A program made the position numbers and the translations under genes. From positions 248,001 to 312,000 of the forward strand of contig JAFLBD010000002.1 in assembly GCA_017303935.1 (NCBI GenBank): a stretch of 64,000 bases of DNA, written 5' to 3'. Within the stretch, counting starts at the first letter, position 1. The number at the start of each line of letters is the position of its first letter. The notes below the pieces were generated by a model. It had not been told where the DNA came from. It did not search any database and worked only from the letters and a program-made list of their open reading frames with translations. Below are positions 9,059 through 17,551 of this stretch, in pieces. Origin of the DNA: Armatimonadota bacterium. Its GTDB lineage: Bacteria > Armatimonadota > Fimbriimonadia > Fimbriimonadales > Fimbriimonadaceae.

Positions 9059-11401
9059 GTGGTCCAGTCCGTCAGCCGGTTAGATAATCTCAAAACCCTG
9101 CGAGTCGCCAATATCGACTCAGCGCTGGCGGCTGCATTCATGTCGCTCCTTGGTGGAGCCTATCTGGTCAAGTTTGTTCAATATCTCGGCGGAGACATGA
9201 ACAAAGGGCGGCTCGATATGATGATCGCGCTGTTCACAGCAATTCCCAGCTTGGTCGGCCTTTTGCAGATACCGGGCGCGATTTGGGGAAGGCGCTACCC
9301 TTACTACAAGGGATTCATCGGTCCTGGCGGTGCGATCTGGCGATTTCTGTACATTCCCATCGCCATCTTGCCGAGTCTCCACCTTCCGAACGTCGTCGCG
9401 ATTACGTTAGTGATTCTCTGCGTGGGAGTCGCGAGCGCTAGTGTTCAGATCGTCTCGCCAATCTACAACGACTGGATGGCTGAGATGGTCCCCGCCAATT
9501 CGAGGGGATGGTTTTTCAGCCGGCGGAATGCGATGCAAGCTTGGGTTGGTGCCCTGGCCGCTTTCGGCGGCGGGTTCCTTTTCGACGAGTTGGGCAAAGC
9601 CACCAGCCCGCAAGTCACGTATACGGTCATCTTCACTCTTGGCATCGTTTTCGGACTCGTCAGCTTGGTCTACTTCTATCGCATGAAGAACATCCCGCGA
9701 CCGGATGTGATGCAAGTCGGGTTCGTCGAAAGTATCCGAAACATGCAAGTTCCGTTCAAAAACCGAGATTTTCGAAAGACCTTGGTTTTCTTTTCGGTGT
9801 TCTTGATCGCCTCCAGTTTCGCGGGAAATCTTTGGAGTGCCTACGCCTTCGAGACCCTCAAAATGGGAATGACCGCATTCCAAGTGAGCGCGATTTGCCA
9901 CGCGGCAGGAAACATCTCAGCCATTCGAATGTGGGGATTCTTGAGCGATAAATACGGCAACAAGCCGGTCATGGTGTTGCTCATCGCGGGCATTTCCCTC
10001 ACACCATTTCCATGGATGATCTGCCAGCCCAACCAGGATGTATTTAATGCCGTCGTTCTGGGGATTACACATATCATTGCGGGGATGTGTTGGGGTGGAA
10101 TCAGCGTTTGCCAGTTCAACCTCCTGCTCGCCACTTCTCCTGAAGAAGGACGTGCGAATTATCTTGGGGCGGGCATGGCAATGCAGTCCTTGATGGGCGC
10201 GGTAGGACCGCTTCTCGGAGCCGAAGTGATGTCGCAACTGCGCCACCAAGTACCAGCGGCAACCGCGTTCCATGCCATTTTTGCGATTACAGCAGTGCTG
10301 CGTGTATGTTCGATTCTCGTGCTGTTGCGAGTGCATGAATCCGGTTCGGTTTCGGTCAAAGGCACGTTCACCGAACTCGCCAAAATGTCGCCGCGTGGTT
10401 ACATGGCGCTCCGCCAAATGAAAGGCTCGTCCGATGCCACTGTTCGTGGCGCTGCGATCGATTCCGCCGCAGACGTCCAGTTTGATATCGCCCGGGACGA
10501 AGTGATCCGCGCCTTGCACGACCCGTCGCCGAGGTTGCGCCGAAAAGCTGCCCGCGCTCTCAGCAGCTTACGGGGAGGGGAAGCGTCTGGAGCACTGATC
10601 GAGATGCTTCGCGAGCACCCTGACCTTGCGGAAGAAGAGATGCTCGAGACGTTGGGGCAACTCGAAAATCCGGACGCGGAACCTGTGCTGATCGAGTATT
10701 TGGGTTCACCGAGGCCACTTTTGCGCCGAGCCGCAGCCAGGGCCCTCGGCAACCTCGGAGGGCCGCAAGCCGGTGAAGCCCTCAAGGGAGCAGCCCAATC
10801 GAACCTCGATCCTGACCTGCGCCGCGCGGCGCTTCAAGGGTTGCGCGAGCTGGAGTTCATGGGAGCAGAATCCGAGATCGCTGAAGCCTGCTTGGACCCG
10901 CATCCGAGTGTCAGAATCGCTGCCGCCGAAGCCATCGAAGCCCTAACGATTCGCTCTGCAACTCCGAAGCTTCGGGCATCGCTCTCGCGATTTTCGGATG
11001 AAGCGTGCAGCGAGATCGCTTATGCGCTTGGGGCAGTCGGCGACGAGACTGATCTTGTTTTGATCCTGCAAGAGGCTCGGCGTTCGACTTCGGATATCAC
11101 GCGGTGGCGGTGCTTGCTCGGCGTGGCCAAGTGTCTCGGATGCGAGACTATCGCCTACCGATTGATGCTTCAAGAGGGAATGGCCAGAGATAGTCTCGCG
11201 GCTCGGCTCCTGCGCGAATCTCATGCACCAAACGAGGTCTTTCGTTCCTTTGACCTGTTCACTCGAGATGAGGAATTCCAGGCATTGCGCGCGCTGGCCA
11301 AGTTCGACGCGGGACTTGAGCCACTGGTTCAAAACCCGGTTGAGGATTTGTACCTGGTCGCACTCGCAAAAGTAATTTCGAATCTCAATACCCGAGTGTG
11401 A
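9059..11401 (+). CDS. MFS transporter fused to a C-terminal HEAT-repeat domain
   Basis: 780 residues. Residues 20-430 are a Major Facilitator with about 12 helices; a cytoplasmic loop carries MVPANSRGWFFSRRNAMQAW and another carries SDKYGNKPVMVL. Residues 440-720 are Ala/Leu/Arg-rich helical pairs of HEAT/PBS-lyase type: RGAAIDSAADVQ, LRRKAARALSSL, LLRRAAARALGNLGG and VRIAAAEAIEAL. HEAT arrays bind proteins, so this transporter may be tethered or gated by a cytoplasmic partner. The substrate is unknown. The GTG at 9059 comes 8 nt after TACAAT (9045-9050), so the mRNA may be leaderless. The receiver-domain gene follows 20 nt after the stop. Confidence 0.8.
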   Translation: MVQSVSRLDNLKTLRVANIDSALAAAFMSLLGGAYLVKFVQYLGGDMNKGRLDMMIALFTAIPSLVGLLQIPGAIWGRRYPYYKGFIGPGGAIWRFLYIPIAILPSLHLPNVVAITLVILCVGVASASVQIVSPIYNDWMAEMVPANSRGWFFSRRNAMQAWVGALAAFGGGFLFDELGKATSPQVTYTVIFTLGIVFGLVSLVYFYRMKNIPRPDVMQVGFVESIRNMQVPFKNRDFRKTLVFFSVFLIASSFAGNLWSAYAFETLKMGMTAFQVSAICHAAGNISAIRMWGFLSDKYGNKPVMVLLIAGISLTPFPWMICQPNQDVFNAVVLGITHIIAGMCWGGISVCQFNLLLATSPEEGRANYLGAGMAMQSLMGAVGPLLGAEVMSQLRHQVPAATAFHAIFAITAVLRVCSILVLLRVHESGSVSVKGTFTELAKMSPRGYMALRQMKGSSDATVRGAAIDSAADVQFDIARDEVIRALHDPSPRLRRKAARALSSLRGGEASGALIEMLREHPDLAEEEMLETLGQLENPDAEPVLIEYLGSPRPLLRRAAARALGNLGGPQAGEALKGAAQSNLDPDLRRAALQGLRELEFMGAESEIAEACLDPHPSVRIAAAEAIEALTIRSATPKLRASLSRFSDEACSEIAYALGAVGDETDLVLILQEARRSTSDITRWRCLLGVAKCLGCETIAYRLMLQEGMARDSLAARLLRESHAPNEVFRSFDLFTRDEEFQALRALAKFDAGLEPLVQNPVEDLYLVALAKVISNLNTRV

Positions 11402-11421
11402 TTCGGTATTCTTCACGTTCG

Positions 11422-11877
11422 ATGTACCGTGTTTTGGTAATTGATGACGAGGACGACGTCAGGTCGGCCGTCAAGAGGAGGCTAGCGCGTGAAGGGTTCG
11501 ATATCGACCTCGCCGACAGTTCTGAATCCGGGATTGCCAAAATCCAAAAGTCCGATCCCCCGTTCGATGTGATCATTACGGACATGAGCATGGAAGATCC
11601 TAACTCAGGAATCCGTGTACTGAGCGCTGCTTTTGCTCGTGATCTCTTTGCTGAAGTGATTGTGATGACGGCGTACGGCAATGTGGCTAATGCCGTGGAA
11701 TGTATGCGCCGAGGGGCGTTCGACTACATCGAAAAGAACAGTCCGAACACCGACGTTTTTGAGCTGCTGGTACAAAAAATCGACGCAGCCATGGACCGAC
11801 GCAGACAAGATGTTCGCGCGATAGAGCGGTGGGAAAGCGTTGCGCGCGCGCAGGAGAAACGAACAGACCATGCCTAA
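11422..11877 (+). CDS. single-domain response regulator (CheY-like receiver)
   Basis: 151 residues from ATG 11422, chosen because the receiver fold starts MYRVLVIDDEDD; a GTG at 11398 would add eight unrelated residues. The acidic pocket is D8/D9, the phospho-acceptor is D54 (VIITDMSM), the switch Thr is in VIVMTAYG and the conserved Lys is in FDYIEK. The receiver is followed only by a charged helix (residues 120-151), so there is no output domain and it probably works by protein contact. No cognate kinase is adjacent. Its last 8 nt overlap the aminotransferase start, and it sits just after the MFS-HEAT gene. Confidence 0.85.
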   Translation: MYRVLVIDDEDDVRSAVKRRLAREGFDIDLADSSESGIAKIQKSDPPFDVIITDMSMEDPNSGIRVLSAAFARDLFAEVIVMTAYGNVANAVECMRRGAFDYIEKNSPNTDVFELLVQKIDAAMDRRRQDVRAIERWESVARAQEKRTDHA

Positions 11878-13093
11878 GATTTCGAATCGAGCAATCAGCA
11901 CTCCCGAATCACCTATTCGAAAGCTCACCCCATTCGCCGATGCCGCTAAAGCAAGAGGAACGAAGGTTTATCACCTCAACATCGGCCAGCCAGACGTACC
12001 GGCACCAGCAGAATTTTGGCAGGCGATCAAGTCTATCTCTGACCCTATCGTCGCCTACACCCACTCAGCCGGAATCCCCACTCTCCGAAAAGCTGCCGTC
12101 GAGCACTACCGCAGCAAAGGGATCATGGTGGATGAGGACAATCTGTTCGTCACCACCGCTGGCTCGGAAGCGATTATCTTCGGATTCCTAGCCTGCCTCA
12201 ACCCGGGTGATGAGGTGATCATTCCCGAGCCTCTTTATGCGAACTATATTGGCTTTGCGGCGATTGCTGGCGTGACGGTTGTGCCCATCACTACCAAGAT
12301 CGAAGAGGACTTCCGACTCCCAAGCATCGAAGAGTTTGAAAAGCGAATCACCACGAAAACAAAGGCGATTCTCATCTGCAATCCAAACAATCCAACTGGA
12401 ACGGTTTACGATCAATCGCAGCTTGAAGCGCTCAGGGACTTGGTTCTGGAACACGATTTGTTCCTATTCGCGGATGAGGTGTACCACGAATTCAATTACA
12501 CCGGACAAAGCGTGCCATCGGTACTTAATCTGACCGGAATCGAGAACAACGCTATCGTCATCGACTCGGTTTCCAAGAAGTTCAGCCTCTGCGGCGCACG
12601 AGTTGGATTCTTCATCTGCCGAAACAAGGAAGTTTTCCATTCGGCGATCAAGTTTTCGCAAGCTAGACTCTCGCCGCCAGCCATCGAACAGATCGGTGTC
12701 GAAGCCGCGTTGCGCACCACCCCGCGATCCTATTTCGACGATATGAACGCGGAGTATCGCCACCGCCGAGACATCTTGGTCAAGAGACTCAAGAGTTTCA
12801 ATGGCGTCACGGTTCCGCAAATCGAAGGAGCGTTCTACGCCATGGTCAGGTTGCCAATCGACGATTGCGACCGATTCTGCCAGTGGATGTTAGAGGAGTT
12901 TTCTCACGAGGGCAAAACCGTGATGATGGCGCCTGGCACGGGATTTTATGAAACGGATGGAGTCGGCAAGGACGAGGTTCGAATCGCCTATGTCCTAAAG
13001 GGTGAAGACTTGGAAGTCGCGCTAGATGTCCTCCAGCAAGGTCTCGCTGTATATCCTGGGCGGACTTGCGAACAGCTAACAGCAAAGGTCTAA
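11870..13093 (+). CDS. class I/II pyridoxal-phosphate aminotransferase (AspC-like)
   Basis: 407 residues from ATG 11870, which lies inside the end of the receiver gene (8-nt overlap) with GGAG upstream. It has the fold-type I aminotransferase signature: LNIGQPDVPAP, substrate loop NPNNPTGTVY, DEVYHEF, and the PLP lysine in SVSKKFSLCGARVGF. It groups with aspartate/aromatic aminotransferases, but the exact amino acid cannot be read from motifs. It is translationally coupled to the receiver gene and ends at a terminator. Confidence 0.88.
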   Translation: MPKISNRAISTPESPIRKLTPFADAAKARGTKVYHLNIGQPDVPAPAEFWQAIKSISDPIVAYTHSAGIPTLRKAAVEHYRSKGIMVDEDNLFVTTAGSEAIIFGFLACLNPGDEVIIPEPLYANYIGFAAIAGVTVVPITTKIEEDFRLPSIEEFEKRITTKTKAILICNPNNPTGTVYDQSQLEALRDLVLEHDLFLFADEVYHEFNYTGQSVPSVLNLTGIENNAIVIDSVSKKFSLCGARVGFFICRNKEVFHSAIKFSQARLSPPAIEQIGVEAALRTTPRSYFDDMNAEYRHRRDILVKRLKSFNGVTVPQIEGAFYAMVRLPIDDCDRFCQWMLEEFSHEGKTVMMAPGTGFYETDGVGKDEVRIAYVLKGEDLEVALDVLQQGLAVYPGRTCEQLTAKV

Positions 13094-13099
13094 TAACAC

Positions 13100-13133
13100 G
13101 GATGCCCCCCAAATTGGGGAGCATCCTTTTCTT
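13100..13133 (+). terminator. intrinsic terminator after the aminotransferase
   Basis: GGATGC (13100-13105) with CCCC pairs with GGGG and GCATCC (13121-13126) around AAATT, followed by TTTTCTTT. It closes the 9.0-13.1 kb transcript. Confidence 0.8.
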
Positions 13134-13148
13134 TCGCAGACGAAGAAA

Positions 13149-14003
13149 TTAGACTCCGGGTCGGCCGCCACCAGGGCCACCGCCGTTGCCACCTGGCCCT
13201 CCCTGACCAGGGCCGCCTGGGCCGCCCTGTGGAGGAGCTTCGTTCTGGAAGGTGAACGGTGCGCCGAGCATATTTCTCCATGTTTGTCGCTGATCGGCAG
13301 TGAGCATCGCCATGACGTCTGCATTGAACGCATCTTCAAGTTGCTTTGCCCGAGCTCGCATCTGATCTGGAGCCAGTCGCTGCTCCATCAGTGCTCGCAT
13401 GGCTTGTTGGAGAGCCTGCATTCGCGTTCTGAAGCTGCTCTTTTGCTCATTCGTCAGGTTCAGCGCCTGTGCGACTTCTGGTCGACCAATCGCCTTTGCA
13501 CCATCGAATTGAAGTGCAAGCTGGTGATATCGGTGATACTGAGCATCATTCAAGATATCTTGCAGCTCTTCTTCGATGTGCTGACCGCGAGGATCTGGTC
13601 CGTTCGGAGGTCCGCCAGGACCGCCTTGTCCAGGACCACCCTGCCCGCCAGGACCCCCAGGTCCCATGCCGCCGCCAGGTCCACCTTGTCCACCGCCTTG
13701 TCCCGGGCCACCTTGACCAGGTCCGCCCTGACCGCCTTGTGGAGGTCGGAGAAGTTCTCGAATCGCTGACTTTTGATCTGCGCTGAGGTGAAGTTCTTGA
13801 CCGACATCATTTCGGAGCAAAAGCATCGGACCGCCTTGTGGGCCCATTGGACGGCCCATTCCAGGACCACCGGGTCCACCAGGGCCGTTCTGGCCTCCTT
13901 GGCCGCCTCCGCTGCCTGGGGTTGGCTGACCGTAGCTTGCCGCCCCGATCAGGGTCATCAACGCAATCGCTGTGAGGGTCATTGTCTTGTGAATGGTTTT
14001 CAT
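13149..14003 (-). CDS. exported Gly/Pro/Gln-rich protein with three LTxxQ-like motifs (CpxP/Spy-like)
   Basis: 284 residues. A signal peptide (MKTIHKTMTLTAIALMTLIG) is followed by low-complexity G-P-G-Q-G stretches at about 24-57, 88-142 and 260-284. The helical parts carry LHLSADQKSAI, LNLTNEQKSSF and MLTADQRQTW, each a variant of the LTxxQ motif of the periplasmic stress chaperones CpxP and Spy. It lies directly downstream of a response-regulator/histidine-kinase pair in the same direction, as cpxP is linked to cpxRA. Its own promoter has an 11-bp tandem repeat. I infer a periplasmic sensor-chaperone in feedback with the kinase; the collagen-like Gly tracts are unusual for the family. Confidence 0.75.
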   Translation of the reverse strand: MKTIHKTMTLTAIALMTLIGAASYGQPTPGSGGGQGGQNGPGGPGGPGMGRPMGPQGGPMLLLRNDVGQELHLSADQKSAIRELLRPPQGGQGGPGQGGPGQGGGQGGPGGGMGPGGPGGQGGPGQGGPGGPPNGPDPRGQHIEEELQDILNDAQYHRYHQLALQFDGAKAIGRPEVAQALNLTNEQKSSFRTRMQALQQAMRALMEQRLAPDQMRARAKQLEDAFNADVMAMLTADQRQTWRNMLGAPFTFQNEAPPQGGPGGPGQGGPGGNGGGPGGGRPGV

Positions 14004-14041
14004 TTCGTTTTCCTATCCCAGTTTCTGTCTCTGGTATTGCA

Positions 14042-14077
14042 ATAGTAGGTTTTGGTTATTTGGAAATTATTTGGAAA
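14042..14077 (-). promoter_or_regulatory. 11-bp tandem direct repeat next to a -10 box: likely OmpR-family regulator site
   Basis: On the minus strand TTTCCAAATAA occurs twice in perfect tandem (14077-14056). It is followed after 8 nt by TACTAT (14047-14042) as a -10 box, and the mRNA would start near 14034. Direct repeats with 11-bp period in place of the -35 box are how PhoB/OmpR-family regulators activate promoters, and such a regulator is encoded two genes upstream. The first repeat contains the stop codon of the kinase gene. Confidence 0.6.
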
Positions 14078-15482
14078 TTGCAAATAGTCTCGATTTAGGG
14101 AAAATTAGCTTCGCGGTCGTGCCTTTTTGCACTGCAGATGCGATTTCGAGCCTGCCTTGATAGGTGTTTGCCAGTGTTTGGGTGATCGCAATACCAAGCC
14201 CCAACGAACCCGTATCGCGGGATCTGGATTCATCTCCGCGGTAGAACCGCTCGCCAAGCCTGGCCAACTGATCCGCAGGAATGCCGCTCCCGGAATCGGC
14301 GACAACGATCGCAAATTCATCACCAACAACTTCGAGGTGGATGTTGACCGCACCGGATTCTGGCGTATGCCGCTTCGCGTTACTGATCAGATTCACCAGC
14401 ATGCGATGTAGATGGTTCGGGCCTATTTCTACTTCATATCCGCCAAGTTCAGGTGAAACTTGCGGGGCCGGGCCGCTTTGGCTTTCCGCGTATTTCAAGG
14501 CGGCTTGAACCGCAGATGCGATTCCGATGCGTCCTGGTTCAGCATGGAGCTCGCCCGCGTCCGATCTCGCCAGCGTCACCAGCTCGTTGACCAGGTGGGT
14601 CATCACATTCGCGGCGTCCGATGCGACTTGCAACGATTCTTTCATCTCGGCGGGGTCATCCGATGGTTGTGAGGTTGCCAGCTTCAACCGAGTTAAAGGT
14701 GTTCGCAATTCATGGCTGGCATCAGCGACAAATCTCCGCTGTTGCTCGTTCGATCGTTTCAGCGCGCCAAATGCAGATTCCAGTCGTTCCAGCATTCCGT
14801 TAAAAGCAAACGCTAACTGACCCAGTTCGTCCTTGGACTTCACCTCCAATCGCGTGCTCAGATCATCTTCATCGAGTTCGGTCGCGGTCTGCGCGACCCG
14901 CTTGATCGGCCGAACTGCACCTTCTGCCAGAAAGTATGCGGCCAGTCCGCTCAGGATCAGCGCAATGGGAATCAATGACCAAAACACCGTGGTTTGCGCT
15001 GCTTCTAGTCTCTGCCGGTCGCTCAGTCCTCGCCCGATTTGAACGATCACCCTTCCTTCCCTGGAGGGAAAAGCCGCGGTCAGCAGAAGGTACTTCTCTT
15101 CATTGAATGTGACGGTATCGAAAATGGGTGCACCAGACTTTGCTTTCTCAAACTGAGCTGGAAACGGAGGTTTGTCGAAGCTATTCGGTCCGCCGACACG
15201 AGCCCCGGTTTCATCAAACACGCTAGGCCTCTGGATGTCGTTGAACCGCTGAGGCGGCCCACCACGTTGGTTCGGGCCTTCTTCACCGGGCGGCTGATTT
15301 GGATCGTCCAGGTTGAACCTTGGTGGAACTCGGCTGGCTTGCTGGGCAATATTCATCAGCTCCGTGCGCAGATTGCGATCTGCAACGGTCCTTGTGGTCG
15401 CCAAAAACACGTTCAATGTAATCGCCAAAACCGCAAGCATTACCAGCGAGTTGATCAGAACGAGGCGTATTTTGAAGCTCAT
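14067..15482 (-). CDS. sensor histidine kinase of the EnvZ/CpxA type
   Basis: 471 residues. Transmembrane helix 1 is at 6-28. The periplasmic loop (30-165) contains a Pro/Asn/Gly-rich stretch (residues 56-80). Helix 2 is at 168-186 and HAMP at about 186-238. HisKA has H257 in FVADASHELRTPLTRLK. The HATPase has N-box NLISNAKRHT, G1 DSGSGIPADQL and G2 SLGLGIAI. It phosphorylates the regulator encoded just before it; the ATGA overlap (4 nt) fixes the pair. The next gene is an LTxxQ exported protein, suggesting envelope-stress sensing through the loop. Confidence 0.92.
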   Translation of the reverse strand: MSFKIRLVLINSLVMLAVLAITLNVFLATTRTVADRNLRTELMNIAQQASRVPPRFNLDDPNQPPGEEGPNQRGGPPQRFNDIQRPSVFDETGARVGGPNSFDKPPFPAQFEKAKSGAPIFDTVTFNEEKYLLLTAAFPSREGRVIVQIGRGLSDRQRLEAAQTTVFWSLIPIALILSGLAAYFLAEGAVRPIKRVAQTATELDEDDLSTRLEVKSKDELGQLAFAFNGMLERLESAFGALKRSNEQQRRFVADASHELRTPLTRLKLATSQPSDDPAEMKESLQVASDAANVMTHLVNELVTLARSDAGELHAEPGRIGIASAVQAALKYAESQSGPAPQVSPELGGYEVEIGPNHLHRMLVNLISNAKRHTPESGAVNIHLEVVGDEFAIVVADSGSGIPADQLARLGERFYRGDESRSRDTGSLGLGIAITQTLANTYQGRLEIASAVQKGTTAKLIFPKSRLFAISK

Positions 15483-16159
15483 GCGCTCTCCTCCGGAGTG
15501 ACCAACCGGTAACCAAATCCGTGGACAGTTTGAATCAGGCTCTTTTCCCGCCCCTCATCAATCTTCTTCCGGAGCGCGGTGACATGAAAGTTGACCGTAT
15601 TGCTCATGCTGGCGTCATCATTCCAAATTTGGTCGATGATCATTTCTCTTTCGAGCACGCGGCCCGCGTTCCGAGCGAGTGCCTCCAGCAGTGAGAATTC
15701 TCGAGGAGTCAGTCGAATTTCTTGCCCATTTCTGGTCACGGACTTGCCCTTTGGATCAATGTGTAGGTCGGCCACCACCAAGATCTCGGAGCGAGTTGAT
15801 TTGTCGCGCCGAAGCAACGCGCGGATGCGGGCCAGAAGTTCGCTAAGCTCAAACGGTTTGGGCAGATAATCGTCCGCACCAGCATCGAGCCCCTGAACCT
15901 TGTCCTCGACGTCGTCTCGTGCGGTGAGCATCAATATCGGGCAATTCACTTTGCTTCGCCGCAACCGCTCGCAGACCTCAATCCCACCCATTTTGGGCAG
16001 CATCAGATCAAGCAAAATCAGATGCGGTGGGTTCAATTTGGCTTCTTCAAGCCCGGAAATACCATCGAACGCAACTTCAACTGAGTACCCCTCTTTTTCT
16101 AGGGCACGCTTCAATTGCATCGCGATCACGCGATCATCTTCGACGACGAGCAACTTCAA
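15479..16159 (-). CDS. OmpR/PhoB-family response regulator
   Basis: 226 residues. The receiver (1-115) has D8/D9, phospho-acceptor D51 (LILLDLMLPK), Thr in ILMLTAR and Lys in DYLPKPFE. The C-terminal winged helix (130-224) has RLTPREFSLLEALARN and the recognition region MSNTVNFHVTALRKKID. It overlaps the kinase gene by 4 nt and starts 18 nt after the photolyase stop, so it is probably expressed from the upstream operon. Its likely target is the tandem repeat at 14056-14077. Confidence 0.92.
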   Translation of the reverse strand: MKLLVVEDDRVIAMQLKRALEKEGYSVEVAFDGISGLEEAKLNPPHLILLDLMLPKMGGIEVCERLRRSKVNCPILMLTARDDVEDKVQGLDAGADDYLPKPFELSELLARIRALLRRDKSTRSEILVVADLHIDPKGKSVTRNGQEIRLTPREFSLLEALARNAGRVLEREMIIDQIWNDDASMSNTVNFHVTALRKKIDEGREKSLIQTVHGFGYRLVTPEESA

Positions 16160-16177
16160 TTCGCCTACATTCTACGC

Positions 16178-17551
16178 TCAATTCTTGAACAAGGCTTGAG
16201 CGAGAGCGGATTGAACTTTGTGATCGACAATCGGATCGGGATAACCATCGGGCGCACCGGGATGTGGCCAATGGATTGCTTCCGAGTCCAACTCGGATAG
16301 TTCCGGGCACCACTTCCGGATGAACTCTCCGGCCGGGTCAAACTTTTTGCTTTGCAAAATGGGGTTAAAAATTCGGAAGTACGGCTGCGCGTCGACGCCA
16401 GTACTCGCCGACCATTGCCAACCGCCATTATTCGAAGCCAAATCAAAATCCAGCAGATAACGGGAGAAGAACTCCTCCCCCTTGCGCCAATCCACCAGCA
16501 GGTCTTTCGTCAGGAACATGGCGGTGATCATGCGCAGGCGATTGTGCATCCAACCGGTTTGAACTAAGCAGCGCATCGCCGCATCCACTACTGGAAATCC
16601 CGTCTGCCCCGTGCACCAAGCCTCGAAATGCTCCTTCGAGCCGGGCCAAGTGATCGCATCACATTCTGGTTTGAAAGATCCTCCGACAACATGCGGAAAC
16701 TCGCTGAGGATCATCTGATAAAACTCGCGCCAGATCAGCTCGTTCAGCCATTTCTCTTTAGGGTCCTGAGCACGAATCGCCTCTCGGACGCATTCTCGGA
16801 TCGAGATCGTCCCGTGCCTGAGGTGGACGCTGAGCCCACTTGTTCCCTCAATTCCGAATAGATCACGAGTGTCGCCGTACGCCTCAATTCCTGGCGCAAA
16901 CCGGGCTAACCGCTCTCTTGCCGCCGATTCACCCGCTTCAAGCCAAAGCTCGCTTCGTTCGAATCCGAGTTCCTCGATCCTCGGAAGCTGCGTGCCAGCA
17001 GGTAGCGAGTCGGCAGCCCAAAACTTACTTTGATCCACTTTGTGCTCGCGGATATCATCGTCGTTGAGTTTTGCCTTCCATGCTTTGCTGTAAGGCGTGA
17101 AAACCTTAAACGGTTCGCCAGAACCATTCAAGATTTCTCGGCGAGCGAAGACCACGTGGTCCTTGACAAACTTGGATTGAATTCCTTCTTCCCGCAGTGC
17201 CTGTCGCACCTTCGCATCCCGCTCAAGAGCATACGGCTCGACATCGCCGTTTACATATACAGATTCAACTTCCAGTTGCTCAGCAAGCCACGGAATCAGC
17301 TCGGCTGGGTTTCCGTCCAACACAATCAACCGAGAACCGAGCATTCTCAGCTTCTCGTCAACCTCTCGCAGACTGTCGTGAATGAAGGTCAGGCGTTTGT
17401 CGTCTTTGTCCTGGAGTTGATCCAAGATCAGGCGATCAAACACAAAAACGACCGCTACTTGATCAGATTCTTGAGTAGCGAGCGAAAGCGCGGCGTGATC
17501 GGTCAGCCGCAGGTCGCGGCGAATCCAGCATAGCGAGCGGCGCACGGGCAT
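16178..17551 (-). CDS. phrB: deoxyribodipyrimidine photolyase (cryptochrome/photolyase family)
   Basis: 457 residues, full length. The N-terminal antenna domain (1-130) starts RRSLCWIRRDLRLTDH. The FAD domain has EKWLNELIWREFYQMIL, CLVQTGWMHNRLRMITAMFL and the signature STGVDAQPYFRIFNP. It repairs cyclobutane dimers with blue light. ELSELDSEAIHWPHPG at the C-terminus is typical of bacterial class I enzymes. The start overlaps the acpS stop (TAATG). It precedes the regulator/kinase genes, so DNA-repair and stress-signalling genes share a transcript. Confidence 0.92.
   Translation of the reverse strand: MPVRRSLCWIRRDLRLTDHAALSLATQESDQVAVVFVFDRLILDQLQDKDDKRLTFIHDSLREVDEKLRMLGSRLIVLDGNPAELIPWLAEQLEVESVYVNGDVEPYALERDAKVRQALREEGIQSKFVKDHVVFARREILNGSGEPFKVFTPYSKAWKAKLNDDDIREHKVDQSKFWAADSLPAGTQLPRIEELGFERSELWLEAGESAARERLARFAPGIEAYGDTRDLFGIEGTSGLSVHLRHGTISIRECVREAIRAQDPKEKWLNELIWREFYQMILSEFPHVVGGSFKPECDAITWPGSKEHFEAWCTGQTGFPVVDAAMRCLVQTGWMHNRLRMITAMFLTKDLLVDWRKGEEFFSRYLLDFDLASNNGGWQWSASTGVDAQPYFRIFNPILQSKKFDPAGEFIRKWCPELSELDSEAIHWPHPGAPDGYPDPIVDHKVQSALAQALFKN

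Follow-up and report, generated by a model that had tools for sequence, protein, structure and literature searches.

An OmpR/PhoB-family response regulator (RR), a membrane histidine kinase (HK) and an exported protein with LTxxQ motifs are encoded next to each other in the genome of a Fimbriimonadaceae bacterium, and the promoter of the exported protein contains a perfect tandem repeat. This arrangement raises the question of whether the repeat is the operator through which the RR controls the exported protein, and whether the three genes form a circuit of the Cpx type, as had been proposed in a reading of the sequence alone. The window, which is the whole stretch of DNA that was analysed, is 64 kb long and comes from a genome of 2.56 Mb in four contigs. 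The best explanation as a whole, to which we assign a probability of roughly 80%, is that the RR activates the LTxxQ gene from this operator and that the regulator has redox and metal targets across the family.

Gene layout and tandem repeat

The three genes are collinear on the minus strand. The RR (15479–16159) combines a receiver domain with a Trans_reg_C winged helix, both far over the Pfam cut-offs (PF00072, Response_reg, 1e-31; PF00486, Trans_reg_C, 6e-27), as in the OmpR/PhoB family. Its recognition-helix region is SNTVNFHVTALRKKI, and its DNA-binding domain is common to the cassettes that carry the box described below. The RR has a TTG start codon that lies 18 bp past a photolyase-like gene at 16178–17551 (16159–16178), and transcription of RR-HK in the window genome may therefore continue from upstream genes. 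The HK (14067–15482) features HAMP, HisKA and HATPase_c domains (HATPase_c, 1e-23). The exported protein is encoded at 13149–14003, and because only 63 bp separate its start from the HK stop, it may be transcribed by read-through from the HK. A GC-rich hairpin followed by TTTT (13102–13130) is located between the LTxxQ stop and the end of a convergent aminotransferase gene on the plus strand, and judged by eye it looks like a terminator. The called start of the aminotransferase gene (11840–13093) is overlapped by the gene for a stand-alone receiver-domain protein (11398–11877).

The LTxxQ promoter contains TTTCCAAATAA twice head-to-tail at 14056–14077, and the hexamer TACTAT (14047–14042) begins 8 nt after this repeat, both as the sequence-only reading had described. 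That reading overlooked that the upstream copy covers the last HK codons and the TAA stop (14069–14067), so that the HK gene contains part of the promoter. Aligned to the register of the relatives, the half-sites are TCCAAAT at 14075–14069 and TCCAAAT at 14064–14058, with a spacing of 11 bp and with 10 nt before the −10 element. The predicted operator core (14058–14075, minus strand) falls within the tandem repeat and overlaps the HK stop codon, and TACTAT (14042–14047, minus strand), exactly 10 nt from the core, is a putative −10 element that has no −35 box. From shuffles, 0.017 perfect 11-bp head-to-tail runs at lag 11 would be expected in the window, which has one, and no second copy of the 22-mer exists in the 2.56-Mb genome even when three mismatches are allowed.

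The cassette recurs in Fimbriimonadaceae. HK and RR orthologues followed by an LTxxQ homologue were found in the cassettes of 17 relatives, 2 of them on truncated contigs, and two further relatives have the order LTxxQ-RR-HK; the exported proteins at the relatives' loci are 30–48% identical. When direct-repeat lags of 6–30 were compared in 18 LTxxQ promoters, 11 bp was the best (z 4.7) and 12 the next (z 3.1). An unsupervised EM motif from 17 LTxxQ promoters consists of the half-site TCC[TA][CA]A[TC] twice, 11 bp apart, with a log-likelihood of 154 versus 51–59 in shuffled sets. A box of spaced half-sites thus stands at the corresponding place in 17 Fimbriimonadaceae cassettes. The box lies 68–88 bp before the ATG in 17 of 17 LTxxQ promoters, independent of the HK end, and at one locus (L043) the gap between HK and LTxxQ is 369 bp. 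In boxes found without reference to any −10, a NANNNT hexamer stands exactly 10 nt downstream in 15 of 17 LTxxQ promoters and in 10 of 12 RR promoters, versus 0–5 at other offsets. This is the arrangement of an OmpR/PhoB-type operator, in which two half-sites follow each other head-to-tail with a period of about one helical turn and keep a constant distance to the −10.

The coding constraint of the HK was considered as a source of the repeat and rejected, because the position of the box follows the LTxxQ start and not the HK stop. It is scarcely credible that the repeat is a functionless chance duplication of the kinase 3′ end: it does overlap the HK stop codon and small tandem duplications occur, but such a run is rarely expected in a window of this size, and 17 cassettes have the spaced motif at the same distance from the LTxxQ start, regardless of how the HK gene ends.

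The exported protein and its relation to Cpx and Bae

Three L[TS]xxQ motifs are present in the exported protein, as had been noticed, at residues 73, 183 and 234, together with an extra LNDAQ at residue 151. A signal peptide likely ends just before the invariant Q26. The family profile, Pfam matches in homologues and a fold model place the protein in the Spy/CpxP superfamily. Against solved structures, the profile matched E. coli Spy (3oeo, 4.9e-8) and CpxP (3qzc, 9e-4), and Pfam LTXXQ is matched by 12 of 22 homologues (E ≤ 0.01), whereas the window protein taken by itself gives no such match. A single-sequence model was poor (pLDDT 54). The five-sequence model has a pLDDT of 66 overall, with a confident core at about residues 56–88 and 138–254 and with disordered Gly/Pro-rich linkers. 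Residues 138–250, mostly above a pLDDT of 85, form a helical hairpin, which includes a Spy-like helical module at about residues 169–250 (13254–13499, minus strand) that carries the LTNEQ and LTADQ motifs with a pLDDT mostly above 90. The ten best fold matches are all STV, Spy or CpxP, with Z scores of 6.5–8.0 that are modest for helical folds. Foldseek alone gave no E-value below 0.1 for the model of the exported protein, and the fold argument therefore rests first on the profile match. Scans of the contigs of named genomes with the LTxxQ protein gave no match.

The Gly/Pro-rich body had been regarded as unusual and collagen-like. Linkers rich in Gly and Pro, however, are a feature of nearly all family homologues, in which their length varies, and no Gly-X-Y run in the window protein is longer than 7 triplets. 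The periplasmic loop of the window HK is also rich in Pro and Gly, and the HK adjoins the LTxxQ gene in most relatives. The kinases at loci L033–L064 have periplasmic loops that are Gly/Pro-rich like the LTxxQ linkers. This poses the question of whether the HK loop and the linkers interact or share a compositional habit.

In Enterobacteria, OmpR-family two-component systems control periplasmic proteins of the Spy/CpxP superfamily, as in CpxRA-CpxP and BaeSR-Spy (PMC8144458, PMC6737893). The window system is like these in that an OmpR-family system adjoins a predicted target from this superfamily, and on this likeness it could be an orthologue of Cpx or Bae. Such orthology is very improbable. 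The RR scores 147 bits versus the NCBIfam cut-off of 341 for CpxR and 155 versus 380 for BaeR, and the HK scores 122 versus 486 for CpxA and 153 versus 603 for BaeS, the Cpx values being equivalog cut-offs. The conserved gene order that had been claimed is also different: in enterics and Vibrio, cpxP is a divergent gene upstream of cpxRA (PMC6737893), whereas the order here is a collinear RR-HK-LTxxQ. The exported protein has an extra N-terminal LTxxQ segment in addition to its linkers, and the targets inferred elsewhere in the family are not the proteases and folding factors of a Cpx-like circuit but include di-haem peroxidases, YHYH proteins and a multicopper oxidase. The cut-offs for PhoB (RR, 208 versus 296 bits) and for the heavy-metal models CzcS/CopS (HK, 188 versus 293 bits) and CzcR/CopR (RR, 224 versus 279 bits) are missed as well, and because these curated cut-offs are missed the system is not a member of the Cpx, Bae, PhoB or heavy-metal subfamilies. 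The proposal of a new branch of envelope control is best retained as a probable, undescribed envelope two-component regulon made from known parts, and it loses its Cpx identity.

Link between the operator and the adjacent regulator

The box accompanies the two-component system in several arrangements. It is kept where LTxxQ precedes RR-HK (L042 and, weaker, L060) and where LTxxQ is encoded apart from the kinase (L108, genome G018), and LTxxQ paralogues that are unlinked to the system, including three others in the window genome, do not have it. With LTxxQ promoters as its only training set, the motif was significant (p ≤ 0.01) before the RR as well, in 13 of 23 cassettes. Fimbriimonas ginsengisoli Gsoil 348 has the order RR-HK-LTxxQ with a box before the RR and another before LTxxQ. 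The promoter of the window RR has no significant box (p 0.16), and autoregulation may therefore be lost in the window genome. A degenerate 11-bp repeat near 16165–16200 was considered as a box at this promoter and rejected, as it breaks the motif at about six positions.

A DNA-binding domain of the SNTVNFH type is found in the RR of 69 of the 85 family genomes, and the same regulator is present in bins assigned to Fimbriimonas, Fimbriimonadaceae and Armatimonadetes. The presence of the box is associated with that of the RR (Fisher p 0.0035, falling to 0.0003 when two genomes with a contig cut inside the HK are removed), and the letters of the half-site vary with the RR: the core reads CAAA in genomes whose RR domain most resembles that of the window and CTCA in the others (58:8 versus 17:86), both tests treating related genomes as independent. 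At three loci with a different recognition helix (L038, L051 and L054), the RR promoter lacks a significant box. A perfect site is missing from 22 of the 69 RR-bearing genomes. The genomes without the RR contain 2 sites in 14 genomes, two truncated contigs set aside, which is the noise level.

These data also bear on whether the box is bound by another regulator, either a paralogous OmpR-family protein or a global factor, with the adjacent two-component system as a passenger. The window genome does encode three more full-length OmpR-type regulators, and the missing box at its RR promoter fits this reading. It is nevertheless unlikely, given that both the presence of the box and its half-site letters track the DNA-binding domain of the adjacent RR, that relatives also have the box before the RR gene itself, and that genomes without the RR hardly rise above noise. 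Comparative sequence evidence supports the operator, its spacing, its family-wide target set and its link to the regulator, and the OmpR/PhoB-type operator predicted earlier at one LTxxQ promoter extends to the family.

The E. coli pho box has an 11-bp period and the half-site CTGTCAT. The window operator is similar in that an OmpR-family regulator is paired with 11-bp direct repeats that stand in the place of the −35 with a fixed short spacer to the −10; however, the half-site is TCC[TA][CA]A[TC]. PhoB binding to direct repeats overlaps the −35 region (PMC3348028). We infer a mechanism of direct binding and of activation rather than repression, in which the phosphorylated RR would bind head-to-tail to the two TCCAAAT half-sites and recruit RNA polymerase, with the operator standing in for the −35 box 10 nt from TACTAT, as PhoB does at pho boxes. 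Binding would raise expression of the downstream Spy/CpxP-like protein, which would be exported to the envelope and, by analogy, would most likely buffer damaged proteins and/or dampen the kinase, a feedback that is likewise conjectural. In the wider family, the same regulator would also control its own gene and exported redox/metal proteins. The system would then work like PhoB at the DNA level and like Cpx and Bae in controlling a Spy-like protein.

Family-wide targets and the signal

A strict pattern of box, 10 nt and −10 was searched with the reversed pattern as a control. It gave 93 sites versus 8 reversed controls in the 85 family genomes, which are mostly metagenome bins and mutually related, and 0 sites versus 2 reversed in 28 genomes of the order's other families. 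Classification of 87 of the 93 sites by the first downstream gene, assigned by distance, gave about 31 LTxxQ genes (10 of them in the motif training set), 13 RR genes, 11 YHYH proteins, 10 di-haem cytochrome c peroxidases (CCP_MauG or DHOR) and 2 HupE/UreJ. Single sites precede an intradiol dioxygenase, a metallophosphoesterase and a multicopper oxidase that carries a fused redoxin domain, and the remainder stand before unassigned, mostly exported proteins or have no clear gene. No phosphate-uptake operon was found among the predicted targets. In genome G023, a box precedes a run of exported metallophosphoesterase, YHYH and metallophosphoesterase genes (L124:4262–8552). Two related exported proteins directly after a box (L154:344–925 and L159:355–954) share a GGHET..VDRGRPV motif and have no Pfam match. 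By both pattern and protein searches, the LTxxQ promoter is the only perfect site in the window genome. Sites there with up to two mismatches are at the control level (73 versus 58), and no wider regulon is therefore claimed for this genome.

The system may sense metal or oxidative stress, as CopRS or CnrX-type systems do, rather than misfolding, with the LTxxQ protein buffering metal or damage and the other targets acting as redox enzymes of the same response. In Synechocystis, the two-component system CopRS induces the adjacent exported helper protein CopM, which binds copper and is encoded upstream as copMRS (PMC4335983). The window system also lies beside an exported protein that is its predicted target; however, the LTxxQ gene follows RR-HK. 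Among the NCBIfam subfamilies, the heavy-metal sensor kinase scores highest for the HK and the heavy-metal regulator ranks second for the RR, but both fall below their cut-offs. The CCP_MauG and DHOR peroxidases, the multicopper oxidase and HupE/UreJ would suit a metal or oxidative response, but no efflux pump or copper ATPase is among the classified targets. The helical-hairpin fold is shared with Spy and CpxP by profile and with Spy, CpxP, CnrX and NccX by fold comparison. The LTxxQ family alignment, however, shows no conserved metal ligand: among Met, His and Cys residues, only M1 is invariant. A metal or oxidative signal is entirely possible, though short of even odds.

The predicted activation of LTxxQ by the RR would have a meaning beyond this locus. 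Operators and regulons of Armatimonadota two-component systems appear to be undescribed so far: a literature search yielded no example, and in the text consulted the genome paper on F. ginsengisoli only counts two-component systems (PMC4072686). A search for 'YHYH domain' found the phrase in two phage papers only. The same predicted switch stands before other exported redox proteins and therefore marks an undescribed, testable response of the cell envelope. On balance, the family probably has an envelope redox and protein-damage regulon, not described before, in which one system, through an operator code of its own, governs Spy-like proteins together with YHYH proteins, di-haem peroxidases and a multicopper oxidase, with half-sites that drift together with the RR DNA-binding domain. 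If true, this would be the first regulatory context for YHYH proteins. The DNA rule of two half-sites 11 bp apart, 10 nt and a −10 predicts about 90 promoters, is testable in cultured F. ginsengisoli, and would link exported redox enzymes with Spy/CpxP-like proteins in bacteria other than Proteobacteria. The family would also offer a natural series for the study of a regulator and its binding site changing together.
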